Shown here one piece after another: positions 8,525 through 20,838 of a stretch of 43,378 nucleotides of DNA. The DNA comes from a virus. The position numbers were made by a program, and so were the translations under genes. Numbering within the stretch: the stretch's first letter is position 1; every line of letters begins with the position of its first letter. The notes under the pieces are model-generated. The model was given only the letters and a program-made list of their open reading frames with translations. It searched no databases and was not told the origin of the DNA. Where the stretch lies: positions 1-43,378 of IMG/VR virus record IMGVR_UViG_3300044815_000010. One strand, 5' to 3'.

Positions 8525-8875
8525 TTATGAGCCAGCAGGAAAATCAGGTGTCACCGGCCATTCAACCACAGGATCATACTCAGTTGCACTCGCCAGTTGG
8601 CGCAGCATATTGTCATAAGCCAGCCATTCCGGCGGATATGGCACTTGCGCTTTCTTGCAGCGCGTAGCCGTAATATCATTTTTTGTAAGTTGCGCTTTTG
8701 CTTTAGCTTGCTGCTGAAGAAGCAAGTTAATCTGTATCTGATCTTCAGTCGGTGGCAACTGTGGGTCGTCATTCTCTAGCCACTCTTCTGCATACCCTGG
8801 TTGTAGCATGGTATACATACCGATGATTTCCCTGCTCTCATTGCGTTGGACGTATGGCATTATTGATCCATTCAT
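8525..8875 (-). CDS. tail-fibre assembly-like protein
   Basis: The 116-residue product starts at ATG 8875, overlapping the tail-fibre stop (ATGA); a second ATG at 8860 begins MPYVQRNES. The pattern MPYVQR...IIGMY...QPGYAEEWL, then a helical Gln-rich middle and a C-terminal PYPPEWLAYD, is typical of small proteins encoded just after tail fibres, some of which are fibre chaperones. Location supports a role in folding or attaching the fibre at 8872-10719. Confidence 0.6.
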   Translation of the reverse strand: MNGSIMPYVQRNESREIIGMYTMLQPGYAEEWLENDDPQLPPTEDQIQINLLLQQQAKAKAQLTKNDITATRCKKAQVPYPPEWLAYDNMLRQLASATEYDPVVEWPVTPDFPAGS

Positions 8876-10719
8876 AGCGGGTCATACCAGCCTAGTGTGG
8901 ATACACTTAAATTAAGGGCAGCGCCCGCTTCGCGGTGCCGAATACGACCGGAAGTATCTGTCCATACCTGACCAGATGTAGAAGTTTGCGATTGCACATG
9001 CCCAACCGGAAAACCTGCGACGGCAGGTAGAATGTCCGCATTATCTGGATCGGATAAATAGGAGACTGCGTTACCTGCCGTGCCATTGATAACCGCATTG
9101 AAGTACAGCTTAACCTTGCGGCCTTTTGGCACAGACATGACGACAAGTGCTGCCGTGGTCGAGCAAGTTACGCCGTTAATATCACTGACCGGAGTCTTGT
9201 AATAGAAATCACCCCCTACTTGCGTCATTGGCAACCAGTTACTTGATGCATCTGTAGGCCACGCGCCGATGTATCGCGACTTCGTGTAGTTAGTTGGCAG
9301 TGTTGGTGCGCCTGTAGCAACGTCGAAACCTATATCAACAACGCCAGTATCAAGCCTGATGATTTCATGAAAGTAGTACATCGTATTCGGCGCTATAGCG
9401 GCAGTACTTAGCTTGCCGCCATTGCCAGAACCAACTGCCCAAGCTGCTGTAGTTTTTGCAATAGAGGACGCCAAATTCATTAGTGTCGTGTTGGTACTAT
9501 CTGTAGCCTGCCCAGGCGCTACGGTAATTGTTGTTGATGAACCAGCGGTGGATAGGCCAAGTCCTGAGAAATATGTACGTAATGGTAGCGTTGTAACGGC
9601 AGTACCATCTGCTCGCGTAAGCGTCAGAAATGTAGTCGTCCCATCGTAATAGATATCAGCGCTATCGCCAGCGGCAGTCGTGACACTTGTCCCGCCGTTG
9701 ATTTTATTAGTCGTGGCATTGTACGTGAGCGGCGTGTTGGCAGTGAAATTAACCCGAATACGCTGGCCGATATTCATCGTCCAGCCAGTCACCGGAACTG
9801 TGCCTGTCAGATTTACAGCAAGATATACTGCAGTCGAGAGATTGACAGTGCTGGCCGATGCAACATTCGCGGGCGCACCTAAGCCTAAGCCTATTGCAGT
9901 CCTTGCAGCAGAAGCATCCGCTGCAGTGATCAGCGCAGTGCCGACCACCGTCTGCCCTGAGACAGCAGTTGCTGCACCGAGCGCGATCGAATTGCCGTAA
10001 CGAGCCTGTATATTATTCGTACCAACAGGCGGCGCACCGGTTAGAAACCGCAGCGTGCGAGGCGGTATCAGCGTGTAATTTACTCCGGCAGTTTGCACCA
10101 CCCCGCCGACGGCAATGTCGAGATTGCCGATAATGAGTGGATCGCCCGTCAGAAGGAAGTCAACCTGCGCACCGGTGCCGTTGAACTTATCGACAACGAA
10201 CGTGCCATACGTGACAATGCCAGCAAGTCCGGCGGGATCGAGATTCGCCAGCCCATCACCAGCAAGGTTCCAGCTGATAATATTGTTCGGGACCGGCAAC
10301 GGCAGTTCGGTCGAGATCGAGCCACTTACTGTCGGCGGCAATGCAAGCGCGCGATCTTGCGCTTCCTTTATTTGCTGCGTCTGCATCGTCAGCAGATCAA
10401 GCGCCTGTTCGTGCGACTCGGCCGGGAACGCGTCATTGTCGACATAATCGGCATCCTGCACGAACGGTACGTTACGGATAATTGTCAGAGACTCGCCGAC
10501 TGCAAGCGCGATGACGAGCGTCACAGTTCCAGTCAACCCGCCTGCGCCAGTGACAGAATAATCAGTCGTCAGCGTCAGATCGGTATCGATGCTATCGATG
10601 CTGGTTTTAATCACGCGCAGATGTGTGTCTGCCAGAAACCGGAAGCCGACCGTGAACGGGCCAGTCGTGCCGGCACCGGCATACGGACCAGATCGTGAGA
10701 TTTCGGTTTCTACTGTCAT
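8872..10719 (-). CDS. tail fibre protein with T7 gp17-like N-terminus
   Basis: The 615-residue protein opens with a virion-anchoring domain like T7 gp17: FTVGFRFLADTHLRVI, later TIIRNVPFVQDADYV and SHEQALDLLTMQTQQIKEA (about residues 1-130). A Gly/Ala/Thr-rich beta-repeat shaft follows (about 150-400), then a C-terminal receptor-binding region with no recognised enzymatic motif. Trimeric fibres of this kind attach to the tail and bind the cell surface. The start ATG 10719 has AGGGCAGG just upstream. It is followed by its probable assembly partner. Confidence 0.85.
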   Translation of the reverse strand: MTVETEISRSGPYAGAGTTGPFTVGFRFLADTHLRVIKTSIDSIDTDLTLTTDYSVTGAGGLTGTVTLVIALAVGESLTIIRNVPFVQDADYVDNDAFPAESHEQALDLLTMQTQQIKEAQDRALALPPTVSGSISTELPLPVPNNIISWNLAGDGLANLDPAGLAGIVTYGTFVVDKFNGTGAQVDFLLTGDPLIIGNLDIAVGGVVQTAGVNYTLIPPRTLRFLTGAPPVGTNNIQARYGNSIALGAATAVSGQTVVGTALITAADASAARTAIGLGLGAPANVASASTVNLSTAVYLAVNLTGTVPVTGWTMNIGQRIRVNFTANTPLTYNATTNKINGGTSVTTAAGDSADIYYDGTTTFLTLTRADGTAVTTLPLRTYFSGLGLSTAGSSTTITVAPGQATDSTNTTLMNLASSIAKTTAAWAVGSGNGGKLSTAAIAPNTMYYFHEIIRLDTGVVDIGFDVATGAPTLPTNYTKSRYIGAWPTDASSNWLPMTQVGGDFYYKTPVSDINGVTCSTTAALVVMSVPKGRKVKLYFNAVINGTAGNAVSYLSDPDNADILPAVAGFPVGHVQSQTSTSGQVWTDTSGRIRHREAGAALNLSVSTLGWYDPL

Positions 10720-10784: not shown

Positions 10785-13700
10785 CTAACGCGCAACAGAG
10801 GACGGCGGCAGGTAAAACGTTTGACCATTCTCCCGTTCCGCACGCTTTTCCATCCTTCTCAGGAAGCCTGGATTCATTGCCTCCTGCATCCGGTAGATCA
10901 CCAGATAATCCAGTGCGGCCCGCGTGTAGAACAGGTTCATGAACGGCGTGTTCTGCAGTGCCGCGTTGAACGCCGTGGCGCCGAAGTCGTCGCCGGTACG
11001 GATGCGCGTCCATAGATCAGCGGCAGTATCGGCCATATTAACGACCGGTCCAGCCAGCGAGCCAGACAGCGTGCCGCCCATGCGGTTGTATTTCGCGAAC
11101 AGGAAATCACCGTAGATGCCGAGCCCGCCGCCCTGCACCATCGCCGCTGCCCAAGTGCGTGCGCTGTCGACCGGGCGCGGGTTCTTACCCTTGATCAAGT
11201 CCTTTATCGACATGGCGGCATAGCCCATCATGGTCGACAGACCGATGAATGTCGCCAGCCCTAGCATGTCTCCTAATGCTTGAACTCCTTGGTAGTTACC
11301 TGTCACGATACCCTTCACTTCATTCCAGCCTGCGCGTCTATATGCGCCTAGGGAATCATAGCCGCGCCCGTATATTTCGCGGCCGAGGACCATCTGAATC
11401 ATTGCAACAGGGAACGATTTGAACTGCCCAGCATAACGCAGGAATTCGCCGGCCACCGTACCCGGCTGCGTGCCGCGCAGCATGAAGGCCCGTGTGCGCG
11501 CGTTCGGCTCGATCACGGCATGGTGCATGCGATCAATCGTCATCGTGCGCAAGGCTGACGATAGATCATCATGCAAGTTCAGGATTGCGGCATCCGATGC
11601 CGTTCGACCGGCCTGCTTGATGTAGTTTTCGAGCGCCGCTGTCGGGACCGTTTTCAAGCCTTCCGGTGTCATGTATTTACGCCCGTCTGCTTCCGTCATC
11701 GAGGCGATACGCAGAATGTCCCACTTGCCCGCATCAATGTTGTATAAACCCAACATATCGTGTAAATCGGCCGGCAGCTTATCGAACGCATGCCTAGCAT
11801 TGGACGCCAGATAATTAGAGTGCCGCAACGCTGCGCCGTCCTGTAGCGATTCCGTCCACCATGTCAGGCCACCCAGTTTGAAGAACTGCTGCATCGCCCA
11901 GGCTGTTTTACCGCCAACCAGATCAGGCGAGTCAAACCGGTGGAACACGCTGCCGAGAACGGATTCATGAAACACGCCGAGCGAGTTCAGGATGGCGGCC
12001 TTTTCGCCTTTTGCCCTACCCTGCACCAGCGCACTCATCCCATCGAGCGTACCTGACAGCAGGTTTTTGCCCTGGCTCATGCGCATTTCGGCACCGTAAT
12101 TTACAAGATCGGTCATGCCAGAGATCAGCGCGCCACCGAGTTTTGCCATCGATTGCAAGGAGCGAAGCGTTGAACCGATCTTGGCACCAAGCGCATTGCC
12201 GGGAATATTCATCGAGCCGTCAACTACCGACAGCATATTTTCAATTTCCTTGCGCGACGACATAAATTTATTACGTTTAGCCCCGGTTAGGCTATCCGCA
12301 TATTCATCGAAAACCCGCAGCAAGGTCGCTTCTGGATTCGTGCCAAGAATTTTCAGCAAGCCAGCCGACTTCGCCGAGTGATCCAGACCGGTTAATACTG
12401 CATCAGCCAGCCGACCATTGCCGAACTTTTCGTTATATTCAAAAGCCGCATTACCATCCTTGAAGTACAGCGAGCGCGATGCCGATTCCCGTTTCGCCAG
12501 ATTCGACCCGCGACCCATCGCCGCGATGTCATCCTCGCCGGCCATCGGTTTCATGTGACTGCCAGCGGCGAAGTCGTCATACATGCCGCGCAGCGATGCC
12601 TGGATATCGTCTCCAACAATCCCGAGCTTACGCATTTTCACTAGATCGAGGCGCGGCAAGACGTGTTCAATCCATCCATTTTCGCCAGCATCGCGGATCT
12701 TGTACATATCGTGCGACTGCCGAACGATATAGCCCTGGGCATCGCGTATCCATGCGCCGAAGCGGTTGCGTGTTGCCCGAGCGTCAGACTGGTATTTGTT
12801 GATAATCTCGGCGATCTTGATGGCTTCCGGCGCCAGCTTGGAATTGTCCGCGCCTTCACGCCCGATATTCCACAGAGCCGTATAGGCATCACGATCGAAC
12901 TGTCCGGATACGAATGCCTCGCGTACGCCAGCTTTCTCGACATCAGCCAGAAGGCCGCCGATCCATTCGCCACGGAAGTTTTTCTGTTCAGCATCGACCG
13001 AGATGCGGCCGCCAGCCCGCTTGCGCTCCGTGCCGACTAGCAGACCACGGAAGCCTTCGACATCCAGCCCAGAAGCGCGGAATTGATTCACGAACGACGA
13101 TGCTTTCAGCCTGGCATTCAGGTTCAGCGATGCGTTCCGTTTGGCGATCACAGCCGCCAGTTCGAGATTGTTCGCCAGTTCGTCCGCCGCCTGCATTGCT
13201 TCATCTTGAAGACCGGTCGCTACATCCTCTGCACCCAGCGCATCACGCGTTGTGCGAGCGACGCCGCGCAAGCCCTTGACGGACTGGCGCAGTTGATCCA
13301 GCAGATCCTTTATTTCGGCAGACGAGATATCCGGCATTGCAGCGCGCATCGCTTCAGTCGCGGCAGCGTCATTGCCCAGCTTGTCGGCAGCGGCCCGGAG
13401 CACGCTAGCGAACTGCTTTGCTCGCACGATGCGTTCGTCGTGAACCTTCAGTTCTTCAGTTACCGTGGAATTATCCGGCGTCTCGCCGCGAGCATACATC
13501 GCTCCAGTACCACCATGCACATCCGCATCCCCACGCGCCACAGCATGCAGCGCCGATACCGCCAAGGCCTGATAGTCGGCCTCCGTCAGCTTCATTACCC
13601 CCTGTACAGATGTGAAATTCTTGAACACCCATGCCCTGATCGCGGCGATGATGCGCTTCACAAGCGGCAGTTCAGGCGACGACTGCACCAGATAGGCAAG

Positions 13701-16700
13701 CTGTTCCTCGCGCACCAGATGCGCAGGCGTGTCGGCAGGCACCGCAGCACGAGCAGCCTGTGCCCATTCAGCGCCGGACGTGATCGCGTCGTCAAGTTGC
13801 TTCAGTACCGCATCGAACGTCTCACGACCGAGCATCGTTTCCATGCCGACGTGAACGCCGACTTCATGCAGCACCAAGCCACGCGCTTCCTTAGCGCTGA
13901 CGTTCTCGGCAACGATATAGGCCTGATCGCGGTTGATCGTAACTGCTTTCACATCGGCCGGATGCGGGCCGCCAGGCAGATCGGCGACGGATTCGACTAC
14001 TTTCACCTTGCCGGAATCGAGCAGCGCCTGCGTACTTTTGCCAAACGCCTCGTTCAGTTTCTGCGTCAGGAATTCCACGCGGGCTGGCGCTTCAGCCATG
14101 CGCTCACCACGCGATGCAGCATCGCGGCTGTAGGCATTCAACCAAGCTTCGGCCTCGATTGCCGCGGCGCTTTTCTGTTTCGGCGCGAGATCGGCAGCAG
14201 TCACGCCGAGCGATTCCAGCGACTTTGCTTTCGCTAGTTCGTCAGCAGTGAATGGAATGTCGGTTTTATCGACCTTGTATGGCACGTCTGCAATGCCGGC
14301 CTGGCGGGCGGCAGCGAGACGGTTGTTCCCGTCGCTCACATACGCCATGCCGTCGGCTTCACTGACTTTCAGCGTGATCGGTTCTTTAACGCCATTCGTG
14401 CGCACATCCTCAGTCAGCGCTGCGAGATCGGTTGAACTCGGATCGACATTGCGATCGTGATCCTTCGCATTCCAGAGTGCGTCAGTTTTCAGCGTCGACG
14501 GCTTGTCGCCTGCGCGGCTATACTGAAACGCCCGATCGCCAGCCTTCAGCGTATCAGCCAGTGCCGTATCTGCGTCCGCCATTGCGGTATTCGCATCATC
14601 GAGCGCCCACGATTTTTTAGCATCCGCCTTCACGCGCGCCTCGACTGCTGCCGATGCCGCAAAATCCGCCGACTGCTGCGATTCCGGTTCAAAACTCTTG
14701 TCGGCTGCCGCCTTCACATCCTCGATCGTCGACGTGCCGACAGCATCATCCATGCCGACGATCGCCTCGACATCAACATTCCTGCCTTCCACAGACTGCG
14801 CTACGGCGCCACGTAGTGCCGCCTCACGCGTCTCCGGTGATACGCGGGCTAGTACCTCAGCAGCCGTATCGACAGACGACTCAGCGGCCTTTATGGATGC
14901 TTCCAGCATCGCCGTTTTGTCGGGCACTGCGCTACCGCCCAGCAGATCGCCCTGCTTCGGATTGCCGGCTTCAGTCAGCCGATCGTAAAAACCGTTAATC
15001 GCATCAGCAATCCGGCGCGGCGCCGAGATATTGCGGTCCATGAAATCCAGCAGCAGGCGAGATTCAGGCGTCATGCCATCGCCGAACGCATCCATCTGGT
15101 TCAGGTAATCCGGGATTTTTGTACCCTGGTCGCGCAGGGCATTATATTTTTCGACCGCTCCCTGTACATCGCCGGCAATATCAAGCGCGTGCAGATCGCC
15201 GGATCCGATCGCATCACGCGCCACGGCAATCGTCGGCGCGGTACGGCCAAGCGCCTGGGCTATATTCCGGCTGCCAGAATCCATCGATTCGACCAGTCGG
15301 CCTAGCGTCGGCGAATCACCGTATGCCTTATAGATCAGCGCACCGTTCAGTCGGCGCAGACCTTCGGCCGACAGTTTCCCATCACTATCGACCAACGCAT
15401 TACGTTTATTCTCAGGCTGCGCCTCGACCCACTGCCGTATCGCGCCACGGTTTTCAGGCGATTGCAGATCGCCATCGGCGCCAACTTTCAGACGCGCATC
15501 GCCCAGCCGTTCCGCATCGACCTTGGATTGTTCCAGCGCCGACATATCGGTACTGCCGCCCTCGTTTGAGAGCATGGCGGCTTTCTTTACGTCGACCTCG
15601 CGCTGCAGGCGGCGCACCAGCACCGGCTTTTTCATTCCTTGCACCGTGGCCGGATCGATGCCGAGTTCCTGCAGGCGCGATTCGAGCGATGCCCGGTAAT
15701 CGTTGCCCTTGCCGATCTCGTATGCCTTGTCGATGAACAGCGTGCGTCCGTTGCCGCCGATGATCCGGCCATCCGCCGCAACCGTCGGTGTGCCGACATC
15801 CATCAGCGGATTATCGGTCGACAGCACCAGATCGGGATCGAGCTCGTTCGCGCGCTTTTGGATTTCCGCCTGATATGCCGACCGGTTACGATCACGGAAT
15901 TGATTGTCAGCCTTGTCGACCGTCGCCTTTAGAGAGTCAGCTTCGACTACGGCAAACTGTGCAGGCTCGCGTGTGTCGCCGATTTTTACTTCTGTGTCAG
16001 CACCCATCGCAGCACCAGCCGGCGGCGCAATTGGATCGGCCGCAGGATTCGGCGTGACCATCTCACTCGCGCCACGGAAGTGTTTGAACGCATCACCGGC
16101 AGCACCGCCTATGACGTGCAGCCCGCCGCCGAAGGCCGTGCCGAACGCGATGTTCGACATCGAGTCCATCGCGGAATAATCGTCGCCTAAGTCTCGGCGC
16201 GCGCTGCCATAGAATGGCTCAAGAGCCGCTGTAGATATTCCACCATCTGCCGCACCCAAAACGGCTCGGGCACCTGACCTAGCAATGAATGATTCTGCAC
16301 CAACCGATGCGGCACGAATAGCGCGTAAAGCCGAAATGGATTTCGTCCACGGAACGAAGGCCGTGGCGAGATTGATCGGGTCAAGGATACCGGCGCCGAA
16401 CATTGCACCACCACGTACAACGCTGCCCATGTCCCAAGGCGTACGCTCACGCACGTCTTTCGCGGCAGTAAGTTGTCGCTGGCGTTCAAGAATAATATCG
16501 AGCTGGGATTTCGTGTATGGCGCGTTAGGGTCAATGCCTTTTACCGCAACACCTGAATCTTTGATAAGCGCCTTCGTTTCATCGACAGGTAACTTTTCTT
16601 GCCCTTCGCCGGCGCTTGATAATTTGAATTTTGTTTTTGTTACGTCGAAATACGACTCCATCCAGGCTTCTTTTACTGAAGCATTCAGCTTGTCTTTGAA

Positions 16701-16769
16701 TGATGGTTCAAAATCCTGCAGCGAGAACTGATCGGTTCCCGCATCTTCCGTGCCAAGGTAAAGCGGCAT
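10785..16769 (-). CDS. giant polyvalent internal virion protein (1,994 aa)
   Basis: One of the largest phage proteins expected at this genome size. Visible parts in order: an unassigned helical N-terminus; a DdrB-like ParB-superfamily region (about 270-560, with GNGR at 339-342 and AMLSNEGGS near 398-406); a second, classical ParB-like domain (about 768-832, with GNNRLAAARQAG); a zincin-like metallopeptidase (about 945-1045, HEVGVH at 968-973 and Glu1021/1022 as a possible third ligand); long helical regions; and a C-terminal LPD38-type domain (about 1,790-1,990). This matches polyvalent proteins thought to enter the cell with phage DNA. Position equals T7 gp16. Start overlaps the previous stop (TAATG). 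Confidence 0.85.
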   Translation of the reverse strand: MPLYLGTEDAGTDQFSLQDFEPSFKDKLNASVKEAWMESYFDVTKTKFKLSSAGEGQEKLPVDETKALIKDSGVAVKGIDPNAPYTKSQLDIILERQRQLTAAKDVRERTPWDMGSVVRGGAMFGAGILDPINLATAFVPWTKSISALRAIRAASVGAESFIARSGARAVLGAADGGISTAALEPFYGSARRDLGDDYSAMDSMSNIAFGTAFGGGLHVIGGAAGDAFKHFRGASEMVTPNPAADPIAPPAGAAMGADTEVKIGDTREPAQFAVVEADSLKATVDKADNQFRDRNRSAYQAEIQKRANELDPDLVLSTDNPLMDVGTPTVAADGRIIGGNGRTLFIDKAYEIGKGNDYRASLESRLQELGIDPATVQGMKKPVLVRRLQREVDVKKAAMLSNEGGSTDMSALEQSKVDAERLGDARLKVGADGDLQSPENRGAIRQWVEAQPENKRNALVDSDGKLSAEGLRRLNGALIYKAYGDSPTLGRLVESMDSGSRNIAQALGRTAPTIAVARDAIGSGDLHALDIAGDVQGAVEKYNALRDQGTKIPDYLNQMDAFGDGMTPESRLLLDFMDRNISAPRRIADAINGFYDRLTEAGNPKQGDLLGGSAVPDKTAMLEASIKAAESSVDTAAEVLARVSPETREAALRGAVAQSVEGRNVDVEAIVGMDDAVGTSTIEDVKAAADKSFEPESQQSADFAASAAVEARVKADAKKSWALDDANTAMADADTALADTLKAGDRAFQYSRAGDKPSTLKTDALWNAKDHDRNVDPSSTDLAALTEDVRTNGVKEPITLKVSEADGMAYVSDGNNRLAAARQAGIADVPYKVDKTDIPFTADELAKAKSLESLGVTAADLAPKQKSAAAIEAEAWLNAYSRDAASRGERMAEAPARVEFLTQKLNEAFGKSTQALLDSGKVKVVESVADLPGGPHPADVKAVTINRDQAYIVAENVSAKEARGLVLHEVGVHVGMETMLGRETFDAVLKQLDDAITSGAEWAQAARAAVPADTPAHLVREEQLAYLVQSSPELPLVKRIIAAIRAWVFKNFTSVQGVMKLTEADYQALAVSALHAVARGDADVHGGTGAMYARGETPDNSTVTEELKVHDERIVRAKQFASVLRAAADKLGNDAAATEAMRAAMPDISSAEIKDLLDQLRQSVKGLRGVARTTRDALGAEDVATGLQDEAMQAADELANNLELAAVIAKRNASLNLNARLKASSFVNQFRASGLDVEGFRGLLVGTERKRAGGRISVDAEQKNFRGEWIGGLLADVEKAGVREAFVSGQFDRDAYTALWNIGREGADNSKLAPEAIKIAEIINKYQSDARATRNRFGAWIRDAQGYIVRQSHDMYKIRDAGENGWIEHVLPRLDLVKMRKLGIVGDDIQASLRGMYDDFAAGSHMKPMAGEDDIAAMGRGSNLAKRESASRSLYFKDGNAAFEYNEKFGNGRLADAVLTGLDHSAKSAGLLKILGTNPEATLLRVFDEYADSLTGAKRNKFMSSRKEIENMLSVVDGSMNIPGNALGAKIGSTLRSLQSMAKLGGALISGMTDLVNYGAEMRMSQGKNLLSGTLDGMSALVQGRAKGEKAAILNSLGVFHESVLGSVFHRFDSPDLVGGKTAWAMQQFFKLGGLTWWTESLQDGAALRHSNYLASNARHAFDKLPADLHDMLGLYNIDAGKWDILRIASMTEADGRKYMTPEGLKTVPTAALENYIKQAGRTASDAAILNLHDDLSSALRTMTIDRMHHAVIEPNARTRAFMLRGTQPGTVAGEFLRYAGQFKSFPVAMIQMVLGREIYGRGYDSLGAYRRAGWNEVKGIVTGNYQGVQALGDMLGLATFIGLSTMMGYAAMSIKDLIKGKNPRPVDSARTWAAAMVQGGGLGIYGDFLFAKYNRMGGTLSGSLAGPVVNMADTAADLWTRIRTGDDFGATAFNAALQNTPFMNLFYTRAALDYLVIYRMQEAMNPGFLRRMEKRAERENGQTFYLPPSSVAR

Positions 16770-19435
16770 TATTGAACCCCTGTTTCGTTTTCTACCTGTT
16801 GCCGCGTCTCTAAAATACGCGCGCGTATCGCGTCATCTCGCGCTTTCATCTTACCACGCAGACCGCCGCTATTTGCCTGTACTGCCTTGGCGTTCTCAGA
16901 TTGCAATTCGGCCCATGAATATGAGACCGGTTGCCCGCCGCGAGTAACGCGGTATTTCGTGCCGTTATTGCCCATCGCGTAGAGTTGGACGCCACTATCA
17001 TCATCACGCGTATGCCAGAGTGGCCGCGACTGAACTGTACGCTGCCACTCTGCATTGACCGCAGCAGGGTCGCGCGACCCTGTCAGATCAGGAGGCGAAT
17101 CTACATCGCCGATTTTCTTGTCGAGTATGATCTTCTCGCCAGCCTTGGCTGCGCTGATATCGATCGATTTCGGAAACCGTGTGACGCCGTCGAATGCATA
17201 GTGACCCAGCACCTGGTTATAGGCTTGATCGACTGCATCTGCCGGCTTCGTGCCGCCCTGTGTCAGTTCATAGGCTCGCTTGCGCATGATCGATTCATAC
17301 GAGTTCGTCACACTGGCCGCCTGGTTCGTCATGTATGGTACAGCGCGAGCAAAGTCGCCGAGCTTTTCCGTCACGGCATCCTTGACGATTTTCTGTGCAG
17401 CGGAATCGATACCGACAGTCAGATCCGATTCCTTGATGCGCGATAGCCGCGACACGGACTCGCGCGCCGCCTGCGACGGGATATTCGGGATGATCAGCAG
17501 TTCGTTGGAAATCTTGTCCTCTTTTACCAGTTGCTGAAATACTTTCGGGAACAGGTCGGGGCCGTATTCCGCTTCCAGCCCAGCGATCAGTTTGGCGCTA
17601 TCGTCTGCTTTCAACGCCTTCGACGCCTGCGCCGCAATATGATCGGACTGTGCCGGCGTCAGGATGCGCGGGTTTTCGATACCCAGCCGCGTCTGTTCCG
17701 CCAACGAGTCGCGTGCGAACTGCTGCACCATACCGGGACGCGATGCCGCCTGATCTTGCGGCAGACTATCGATCGCCTTACGCTGCGCCGATAGCGAGTC
17801 TGAATTCGCCGTCACATAGCCGACTGGATCTTTCTTGCGTTGCTCCATTACCTGAGCCGCAGCCTTCACGCGCGTGTTATAGCGCTCATCGTCAGCAGCA
17901 TATCCACGGCCCGCTTGCGGCTTGTCGCTTTCAAGCTCGGCTTGTATTTCCGCCGACGACTGCGTTTTGAAGCGACCGATGTCGGCGGCCATGTCGCGCG
18001 ACTTCTGATAATTCTCATAGGCCCGCGCGCCGTCAGCGCCATATGCGCGCGCAAAGTAATCCTTCGACAGATTAAACGAGTCAACCACGCCGTCCTGATG
18101 CATCGCCACGGCGTCCTGCACGGTACGCGTCGCCTCGGCCTTGAACGTCGCCTCGGATTGCTTCAGGCGTGTTTCAGCATGGTTCTTCATGGCGAGTTGC
18201 TGTTCCCAATCCATGCCGGTAAATGTTTTCGGCTGCACTGGCTTGTCATCGCTGGCGATCGGTACGTTACCATTCGATGCTACCGTCGCGATTACAGGAT
18301 TGTTGCCCTGCTTCGATATACGCGCACGGATCGAATCGACATACTCGCCGATGGTCGGATCATTAGGCCGCGTCTTATTCTTCCAATCTCGGTTAATCGA
18401 GCCATCAGAATTCACTGCGCCCTCGCCGCCATAATAGGCAGCCGCGACTTTGTCGGTATCGCCGTTGTATTTCTTGCCGAGATATTCGACCCAGGCGTAA
18501 CCAGCGTTTTTATTGTCAGCCGGATTCTTCCAGTCGGCATCTTTCGGGATCAGCCCCTTGGCCTTGGCCGCATTGAACGTACCCTCCTGCATCTGCATCG
18601 GGCCGGTCACGTTCTGTGGGTTCACCTTCGACGTATCGGCAGAGCCGGACGAGGATTCCTGCCCGTAGATCGCATCGGCCACGGCTTTCGAACCGGGCGT
18701 GATGCTGCCGGACGGCGTGGCAGCACCCGTACCACCGACACCAGGATCGAACGTGCCGAACCGGCGCTTGTACCAGCCAGCCGGATCGCGCTCTAACTCG
18801 CCTTTTTCGATAGCAAGATCCATGCCGCGCTTGTATTTGCTGGCAGCGGTGATCTTTTCCGCTTCGCTAAGGTCGTTACGCGCGAGGATCGTTTCGATGC
18901 GGCGCGTGGTCACTTCGTTGTAGCGCGTGTTGTCGTTGTACACCGTGTTCTGATCGGCTAGGATGCCCACATCGGTATCGGCATTGAGCTTGTTCGTCGT
19001 TGCCGATTCCTGGAACTTGAACGCGCCCTGCTGCAGGCGTGACTTCATCGCGTTCGCCTGCACCTGGAAATACTGGCGCGATTTATCCGTCGGCAGTTTT
19101 GCGGACTGTTCAGCTGACCACTTGTCGAAATCAGTGCCGATCGTCTCGCGCATATCGGGATCGCCGACCTTGTACGCCTTGAAGCGGTCGGAGGTATTCT
19201 GCTGCCAGTAGACATCAGCCTCTGACAAGATATTCGAGGACTGCACTGCGCCAATATTCTCGCGCTGCTTTGCCTGCGCCTGTTCGTACTCAACCAGCGC
19301 ACCCTGGGTCTGCTGCGCCAGCCCGCCGAGAGCCGTAGCCATCGGGTCATTAGCCGAAACATTTGTCGTGGCGCGCGCCACATTCATTGGCGCGTCCATC
19401 GATTCGGTTCGCTGATATGTCGGGATCTTAGCCAT
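16769..19435 (-). CDS. internal virion protein with lytic transglycosylase domain
   Basis: The 888-residue protein has helical flanks and an SLT-type lytic transglycosylase domain at about 250-375. The catalytic Glu is likely Glu260 (YGQESSSG), followed by GPMQM (279-283), an AYAWVEYLG-like helix and the AAYYGGEG motif. Such domains in T7-like ejection proteins locally open peptidoglycan so the injection channel can cross the periplasm. The long remaining sequence is rich in Ala, Gln, Lys and Asp. Start and stop both overlap neighbours as TAATG, so it is co-translated with the gp14-like protein and the giant protein. Confidence 0.88.
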   Translation of the reverse strand: MAKIPTYQRTESMDAPMNVARATTNVSANDPMATALGGLAQQTQGALVEYEQAQAKQRENIGAVQSSNILSEADVYWQQNTSDRFKAYKVGDPDMRETIGTDFDKWSAEQSAKLPTDKSRQYFQVQANAMKSRLQQGAFKFQESATTNKLNADTDVGILADQNTVYNDNTRYNEVTTRRIETILARNDLSEAEKITAASKYKRGMDLAIEKGELERDPAGWYKRRFGTFDPGVGGTGAATPSGSITPGSKAVADAIYGQESSSGSADTSKVNPQNVTGPMQMQEGTFNAAKAKGLIPKDADWKNPADNKNAGYAWVEYLGKKYNGDTDKVAAAYYGGEGAVNSDGSINRDWKNKTRPNDPTIGEYVDSIRARISKQGNNPVIATVASNGNVPIASDDKPVQPKTFTGMDWEQQLAMKNHAETRLKQSEATFKAEATRTVQDAVAMHQDGVVDSFNLSKDYFARAYGADGARAYENYQKSRDMAADIGRFKTQSSAEIQAELESDKPQAGRGYAADDERYNTRVKAAAQVMEQRKKDPVGYVTANSDSLSAQRKAIDSLPQDQAASRPGMVQQFARDSLAEQTRLGIENPRILTPAQSDHIAAQASKALKADDSAKLIAGLEAEYGPDLFPKVFQQLVKEDKISNELLIIPNIPSQAARESVSRLSRIKESDLTVGIDSAAQKIVKDAVTEKLGDFARAVPYMTNQAASVTNSYESIMRKRAYELTQGGTKPADAVDQAYNQVLGHYAFDGVTRFPKSIDISAAKAGEKIILDKKIGDVDSPPDLTGSRDPAAVNAEWQRTVQSRPLWHTRDDDSGVQLYAMGNNGTKYRVTRGGQPVSYSWAELQSENAKAVQANSGGLRGKMKARDDAIRARILETRQQVENETGVQ

Positions 19436-19949: not shown

Positions 19950-20405
19950 TTATTCCCCTTCGATCTGTTTTACCTGCGCCATATCCAAAGCGGGGCGGCG
20001 CGTCATCAGACGATCCGATTCGCGCGTCATCGCGTCCTCGATCTCGCGAATGTCTGTCAGATCGGTACGTAAGATCGTGCTCCACCAGGTATCGCTATGC
20101 GCTACGCCGACGCGCTTGAAGCCTTTGGCTGCCGGCAGCACATGAAAGCCGGTCAATCTCTTTGGTCCTAAGTCGGTTGTTACGGTGATATCGCCGAACA
20201 GTACGCAGATGTTGTCGATCTCGGTTTGCGCTCCGGTCATGGTTACGCCAGCCGGGATCATGCCTGTCCGCGCGCACATACCGCCGAAGACCAAGTGAGC
20301 AATTTCAATGTCGACCTGCGGTAATTGCAGCGTGAGATTTTCCAACGCATGCACCTTGTCCGGCGAAGGCATACCGGAAATGAAATCTTGAATAGCGTCA
20401 CTCAT
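19950..20405 (-). CDS. hypothetical virion-module protein (151 aa)
   Basis: ATG 20405 overlaps the stop of the gp13-like gene and gives a 151-residue acidic protein. It has an N-terminal helix (SDAIQDFISGMPSPDKVHAL) and mixed alpha/beta sequence with GVTMTGAQTEIDNICVLFGD. No family recognised. Lying between gp13-like and gp14-like genes, it is probably a virion or assembly protein without a T7 counterpart. Confidence 0.6.
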   Translation of the reverse strand: MSDAIQDFISGMPSPDKVHALENLTLQLPQVDIEIAHLVFGGMCARTGMIPAGVTMTGAQTEIDNICVLFGDITVTTDLGPKRLTGFHVLPAAKGFKRVGVAHSDTWWSTILRTDLTDIREIEDAMTRESDRLMTRRPALDMAQVKQIEGE

Positions 20406-20838
20406 CTTCAACCCTCGCAAATAAATAACTGTTGCCACCATCAGGCCGGTATGCGCGCATTGGCGTACCTGGCGTTTCGTTGTTAAATCCCAACATTTCG
20501 AGCCACTTGATGCCAGCCTCAAACCCTACGTCGACGGATGCCTCAATGCGCCGCCACTTCGCAGCCAGCAGGAACCCCGCAACTGCGCGATGTATGCCAA
20601 TCATGTGCCGCCCGGCGTCGCGTGAGACAAGCGCCCATATCTGCGCCCGGTTGTCCCAAATCTCTATGCAGCCGCCGCATCCTAAAACCTTGTCGCCATC
20701 CATCGCCGTAAATGCCTGCCCGCTTGCCTTCAGATAATCGCCATAGCCTTCACGCTGGATTTCAGCGCCGAAGTATTCCTGCGACGGTTGCAGCACGAGC
20801 GCTTTCAGATGCTCAGGTTTGAATGCAACGATGTTCAT
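20398..20838 (-). CDS. T7 gp13-like (GNAT-fold) internal virion protein
   Basis: The 146-residue product reads like an acetyltransferase-fold protein: GYGDYLKASGQAFTAMDGDK and VLGCGGCIEIWDNRAQIWAL near the start, an alpha-helix after RDAGRHMIGIHRAVAG, and the GNAT-like end GFEAGIKWLEMLGF. T7 gp13 (DUF2833) has this character and is needed for virion morphogenesis. The classical acetyl-CoA loop is not obvious, so a structural role is more likely than catalysis. Start overlaps the tail tubular protein B stop; order matches T7. Confidence 0.7.
   Translation of the reverse strand: MNIVAFKPEHLKALVLQPSQEYFGAEIQREGYGDYLKASGQAFTAMDGDKVLGCGGCIEIWDNRAQIWALVSRDAGRHMIGIHRAVAGFLLAAKWRRIEASVDVGFEAGIKWLEMLGFNNETPGTPMRAYRPDGGNSYLFARVEDE

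Follow-up and report, generated by a model that had tools for sequence, protein, structure and literature searches.

The 1,994-aa ORF and its neighbourhood

The stretch of DNA analysed here (the window) is a 43,378-base IMG/VR virus record, in which a 1,994-aa ORF is present as a single copy (Table 1). The ORF is one uninterrupted frame, as the original prediction held, and it is encoded on the minus strand. Its ATG shares one base with the stop codon of the 888-aa gene upstream. The minus-strand order is terminase-like genes, portal (Head-tail_con match, E=8e-102), capsid, tail proteins, a GNAT-like internal virion protein, a gp14-like protein, the SLT-bearing 888-aa protein (the counterpart of epsilon15 gp15 and Ab31 ORF14), the 1,994-aa ORF and the tail fibre. 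Integrase, RecT and YqaJ genes are present elsewhere in the window, which suggests that the phage is temperate. Two ORFs on the plus strand resemble, judged by eye, a PAPS-reductase-type protein (763-1545) and an HNH-type endonuclease (2494-2988).

Table 1. Features of the 1,994-aa ORF and of the adjoining genes in the window.
Feature	Residues	Position	Strand	Remarks
Tail fibre protein, adjoins the ORF downstream		8872..10719	-	phrog_1640
Whole ORF	1-1994	10785..16769	-	1,994 aa, 213.8 kDa; ATG at 16769
N module, gene-A type ejection module	1-255	16005..16769	-	phrog_3003; Ab31 ORF15 E=3e-80
Slot 1 cargo, DdrB-like ParB module	256-610	14940..16004	-	PF18763; GNGR at 339
M module, conserved helical gene-A module	611-750	14520..14939	-	
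Joint peptide YSR	750-752	14514..14522	-	
Slot 2 cargo, candidate second ParB-type domain	778-835	14265..14438	-	GNNRLAAARQAG at 814
Joint peptide YSR	880-882	14124..14132	-	
Z module, zincin-like metallopeptidase	890-1081	13527..14102	-	
HEVGVH (HExxxH motif)	968-973	13851..13868	-	
Joint peptide YAR	1092-1094	13488..13496	-	
C module, gene-B type	1147-1994	10788..13331	-	phrog_684 / epsilon15 gp17 family; all-helical
QFKSF segment, shared in place with T7 gp16		11412..11426	-	
888-aa core protein with SLT transglycosylase		16769..19435	-	PF01464 E=2.8e-9
gp14-like internal virion protein, 194 aa		19435..20019	-	phrog_418 E=1e-17
GNAT-like internal virion protein		20398..20838	-	phrog_308 E=1e-7; counterpart of epsilon15 gp13

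Terminal modules and ParB-type domains

The N module has two hydrophobic stretches (121-139 and 207-225). It is followed by a DdrB-ParB domain (PF18763 at residues 267-388, E=4.5e-25, above the Pfam cut-off). The GNGR sequence from which a ParB-type region had been predicted lies inside this domain, and it was kept in 20/20 homologues, active-site Arg included. Residues 290-600 are homologous to phage P1 DdrB (~310 aa, E=7e-23), and pLDDT is mostly >85 in the predicted structure of this module.

The second ParB-like region, proposed from the GNNRLAAARQAG sequence, was matched weakly by three libraries, and the Pfam and TIGR scores were below the curated cut-offs (ParB_N, E=0.0036, 17.8 bits vs. 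26.3; TIGR00180, E=4e-5, 23.4 vs. 58.45; PHROG, E=0.0016). We therefore treat this domain as a lead. It was found neither in other viral contigs, using a pattern search, nor in phage records.

The C-terminal 848 residues (matched over 1147-1992) belong to phrog_684, ‘virion structural protein’ (E=1.9e-179), and are homologous over the full length to epsilon15 gp17 (E=1e-115). The AF2 model of the C module is essentially all-helical (pLDDT 84, pTM 0.86). The LPD38 identity that had been proposed for this end of the protein was rejected after three tests, in which PF18857 gave no match in the window at E<=10 and none of the 22 records holding relatives was above its cut-off (0/22); the region is phrog_684 instead. 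Foldseek searches with the two AF2 models, the one containing the Z module and that of the C module, returned no significant PDB match (C. crescentus ParB, second in rank, had E=0.75, which we do not take as evidence). Sequence searches of the PDB with the whole protein, the C-module profile and the Z-module profile also gave nothing significant.

The ejection module had further been described as T7-like. This term is loose: gene order and homology fit epsilon15 and Ab31, the synteny being with epsilon15 more than with T7, and what stands of the T7 likeness is a short segment similar to T7 gp16, QFKSF. When the C profile was compared with seven T7-type gp16 proteins, QFKSF or the adjoining sequence was the best segment in all of them. 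Its distance from the C-terminus is 212 residues in T7, mostly 196-216 in T7 relatives and about the same in the window. The match to T7 gp16 reached E ~1e-4 within this seven-protein search, in which no reversed control did better than 0.15 and the weakest gp16 matches were at E 0.09 only; hhalign of the C module against T7 gp16 gave Prob of only 8-10%. A hydrophobic stretch (1835-1853) comes after QFKSF in the window, at the place that matches the second putative membrane region of T7 gp16 (PMC8954989). Beyond this segment, no wider similarity to T7 gp16 was found by profile or fold. Remote homology between the C module and T7 gp16 is a lead, not proof.

Fusion of two ejection genes

We searched ~190 loci with HMMs for the N, M, zincin and C modules; some of these loci are overlapping stretches of one contig. 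The majority layout is a gene A (N and M modules, ~600 aa) followed by an adjacent and often overlapping gene B (C module, ~860 aa). Among the 148 classifiable C-module rows, A and B were separate and adjacent in 117 and fused in 31. In a tree built from 156 distinct C modules, the fused and split states change at least five times. The clade of the window is well supported, and all its classifiable rows are fused; no member of it turned up among the listed phage isolates.

In Ab31 and epsilon15, the two-gene state is found at the corresponding place, between the SLT core protein and the tail fibre (Ab31 ORF15 and ORF16, 579 and 858 aa; epsilon15 gp16 and gp17, 634 and 918 aa); unlike the window, both keep A and B apart and have neither cargo nor zincin. 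The N module is homologous to Ab31 ORF15 and the C module to both Ab31 ORF16 and epsilon15 gp17. The N module has no detectable homology with epsilon15 gp16, to which it corresponds by position only. Like T7 gp16, the protein of the window is the last and largest core protein; the SLT domain is located on the neighbouring protein in the window. Fused zincin-bearing proteins have ~1.8 to 2.9 thousand residues, and the gp16-like proteins that PMC8954989 lists span 609-1337 residues. Table 1 of the same paper gives epsilon15 gp11-gp13 (229, 499 and 708 aa) as the counterparts of T7 gp14-gp16, which disagrees with the epsilon15 record (L289), where the cassette is gp13-gp17.

The ORF is thus two ejection genes fused around exchangeable cargo slots, a layout that the original prediction had missed.

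Cargo slots

The module order N, M, zincin, C is constant, and it defines three slots (N/M, M/zincin and zincin/C). In the window, slot 1 carries the DdrB-type ParB, slot 2 the candidate second ParB, and slot 3 is empty. A DdrB-ParB is located between N and M in the window and in loci L003, L007, L009, L028, L030, L036 and L194. ART-PolyVal is present between M and zincin in L004, L006 and L194, and between zincin and C in L008, L014, L028 and L030. PBECR5 lies between M and zincin in L030. RadC lies between M and C in L043, which belongs to a group of fused proteins without zincin.

The largest fused relative (L014, 2749-11490; 2,914 aa) has ~900 residues of unassigned cargo between M and zincin, plus ART. 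The zincin-less group consists of L043 (4456-11478) and its near copies L055, L057, L059, L060 and L084, which run from N to C with ~900 residues of other cargo and joints without the YSR peptide; L043, where RadC was found, was the sole member scanned. A protein of ~2,480 aa at the same position of the ejection cassette (L205, 3805-11247) is annotated in MW202473 as ‘crystallin beta/gamma motif-containing protein’; it has a DdrB-like module and an HEGGH motif, and the annotation looks uninformative.

The zincin-like module

The motif HEVGVH is exactly where it had been predicted, and its form is HExxxH rather than the usual HExxH. Loss of the His, Glu and His residues in homologues would have spoken against a zincin; HExxxH was kept in 35/35 distinct sequences. 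A further invariant Glu is found downstream (residue 1022, alignment position 143, all ten rows), and it sits in a predicted helix (1016-1030). The predicted order of the module is helix 894-909, strands 922-953, motif helix 959-997 and glutamate helix 1016-1030, and this helix-strands-helix order fits the description of zincins in Iyer et al. 2017 (PMC5512222). The profile of the Z module matched zincins from phage giants, P1 DdrB among them (Prob 93%, E=2.9e-7), but Foldseek gave no significant hit for the model that contains this module.

We considered that the zincin might be confined to fused proteins. This idea was rejected because the split genes of L011 and L012 also carry a zincin; gene A of L012 has a zincin and an ART domain. 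A zincin relative with 29% identity is also present in an otherwise different giant, a 4,262-aa ORF of a viral contig (L202, 1-12786).

A peptide repeated at the joints

A short peptide, Y/F-S/A-R, recurs at four joints of the zincin-bearing proteins: the end of M, either side of the zincin, and a point 52 residues ahead of the C module. Each joint carries it in 20-22 of 23-27 proteins, and these copies, coming from relatives, are not independent. When all tripeptides were ranked across the four joints, YSR was first and SRG second. Outside the modules of zincin-bearing proteins, Y/F-S/A-R reached 4.39 per 1,000 aa. Five permutations of the motif reached 0.52-1.72, and gene A proteins without zincin had 0.57 copies of Y/F-S/A-R per 1,000 aa. 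The 84 motif copies comprise 49 different 9-mers with codons at background, and their serines use both AGY and TCN codons near background frequency. The diversity of 9-mers and the background codon usage indicate that it is the peptide that is constrained.

The window has copies at 750, 880 and 1092, which bracket the candidate second ParB and the zincin. In the predicted structure, copy 750 ends a long helix where a low-confidence stretch borders it, and copy 1092 is inside a low-confidence stretch. Computed cuts after each Arg give 79.7, 13.8, 22.6 and 97.9 kDa. The first and last predicted fragments (~80 and ~98 kDa) are near the products of genes A and B; the slot-1 cargo would stay on A.

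The motif was absent from two more distant zincin-bearing proteins (L200 and L201) and from phage P1 DdrB. It is also found at the end of ART domains in unrelated giants in which no such zincin was detected; DIRYSR is a frequent ending of the ART tail itself. Across many unrelated phage giants (L209-L288), ART cargo ends IKSATGNxGTFDPxNPDIRYS(R), and this tail travels with the domain. That the motif is a general feature of ART proteins was rejected: in 61 proteins with no zincin by a simple pattern, there was no overall enrichment (0.76 vs. 0.73 per 1,000 aa).

Discussion

Several domains of unrelated activity are present in one chain encoded among virion genes, as in the polyvalent proteins described in PMC5512222: large multidomain late-gene products with a DdrB-ParB, an HExxxH zincin and virion structural parts. 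ART-PolyVal, PBECR5 and RadC, present in relatives of the window, are likewise shared with those proteins. The polyvalent reading of the original prediction stands on the ejection cassette beside the SLT protein, the virion family of the C-terminal half and the polyvalent-type domains in the middle; its LPD38 part does not, and the channel-building C-terminus and the delivery of nuclease and peptidase activity that it also proposed are conjectural. The window differs from those proteins in that its frame is a fused podovirus ejection pair with a fixed order and slots bounded by a peptide, an arrangement not found in the excerpted text of Iyer et al. 2017 (PMC5512222).

We consider it likely that the ORF encodes a polyvalent ejection protein, in which a fused epsilon15-type pair surrounds a cargo bay and which is injected. 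In a podovirus of the epsilon15 type, it would be the last of the ejection proteins, with the A part (N and M) at the position of Ab31 ORF15 and epsilon15 gp16, and the B part (C) at that of ORF16 and gp17. Epsilon15 gp15 and gp17/16 are parts of a packaging and injection device according to PMC12391199, citing Guichard 2013. The structural ends would be packed in the virion core, exit through the tail and help to form a path across the envelope. By analogy with what is established for related proteins, the cargo bay would probably be carried along with them into the bacterium with the viral DNA and be enzymatically active there.

The zincin may then trim the chain at the Y/F-S/A-R joints. The products would be an A-like chain of 80 kDa, the ParB cargo (14 kDa), the zincin itself (23 kDa) and a B-like chain of 98 kDa. 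Self-processing is plausible, and we put this four-chain outcome forward tentatively, as somewhat doubtful. A stricter version, a virion polyprotein in which the built-in HExxxH metallopeptidase recognises [KRAQ]-[YF]-[SA]-R-[GAD] at every joint and frees interchangeable cargo, seems to us rather unlikely; if true, the phage could take up new effectors in its slots and deliver them at a set ratio to the ejection machinery. Zincins were proposed to cut polyvalent proteins into working parts by Iyer et al. 2017, whose excerpted text (PMC5512222) gives no recognition site. Phage P1 DdrB, which the same paper reports as processed and packaged, is homologous in its DdrB-ParB and has its own HExxxH zincin (HELGHH) near the C-terminus, whereas it differs in size (~995 aa), in belonging to a myovirus and in lacking ejection modules and joint peptides.

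The protein might instead be packaged and injected as one uncut chain, with the peptide as a linker or docking element and the zincin directed at host proteins or serving encapsidation. This alternative is a strong one, of not quite even probability. Its precedent is N4 virion RNA polymerase, a giant injected virion protein that has an MPTase domain as well as a functional middle part and that, according to PMC5512222, is packaged unprocessed; the cargo and ends of that protein are unrelated, and we set it beside the window by literature description. The motif at ART ends in proteins without a detected zincin of this kind, and its lack in two zincin relatives, also favour an uncut chain. However, among relatives the motif accompanies the zincin (4.39 vs. 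0.57 per 1,000 aa), two of the three window copies fall within or next to stretches of low confidence that are probably flexible, and cuts at the joints would give back the products of the two-gene state.

A purely structural core protein, whose ParB and zincin modules are degenerate or used in assembly and do nothing inside the host, appears improbable. Most relatives do have A and B without cargo, and ParB folds may be non-catalytic binders, but the catalytic residues are invariant (HExxxH and GNGR alike), and the swap of cargo for other enzyme families (ART, PBECR5) is not what such a protein predicts. Least probable is a DNA recombination joint for cassette exchange with no protein-level signal: the repeated peptide does sit where cargo differs between close relatives, but a recombination site was rejected on the diversity of 9-mers and serine codons.

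For the injected polyvalent ejection protein that we favour, the family supplies a candidate cut site, fragment sizes and a comparison of fused with two-gene states, which makes the idea of zincin processing directly testable. The fused proteins may represent a route by which podoviruses gain injected effectors, fusing two ejection proteins and loading enzymes between the conserved modules.
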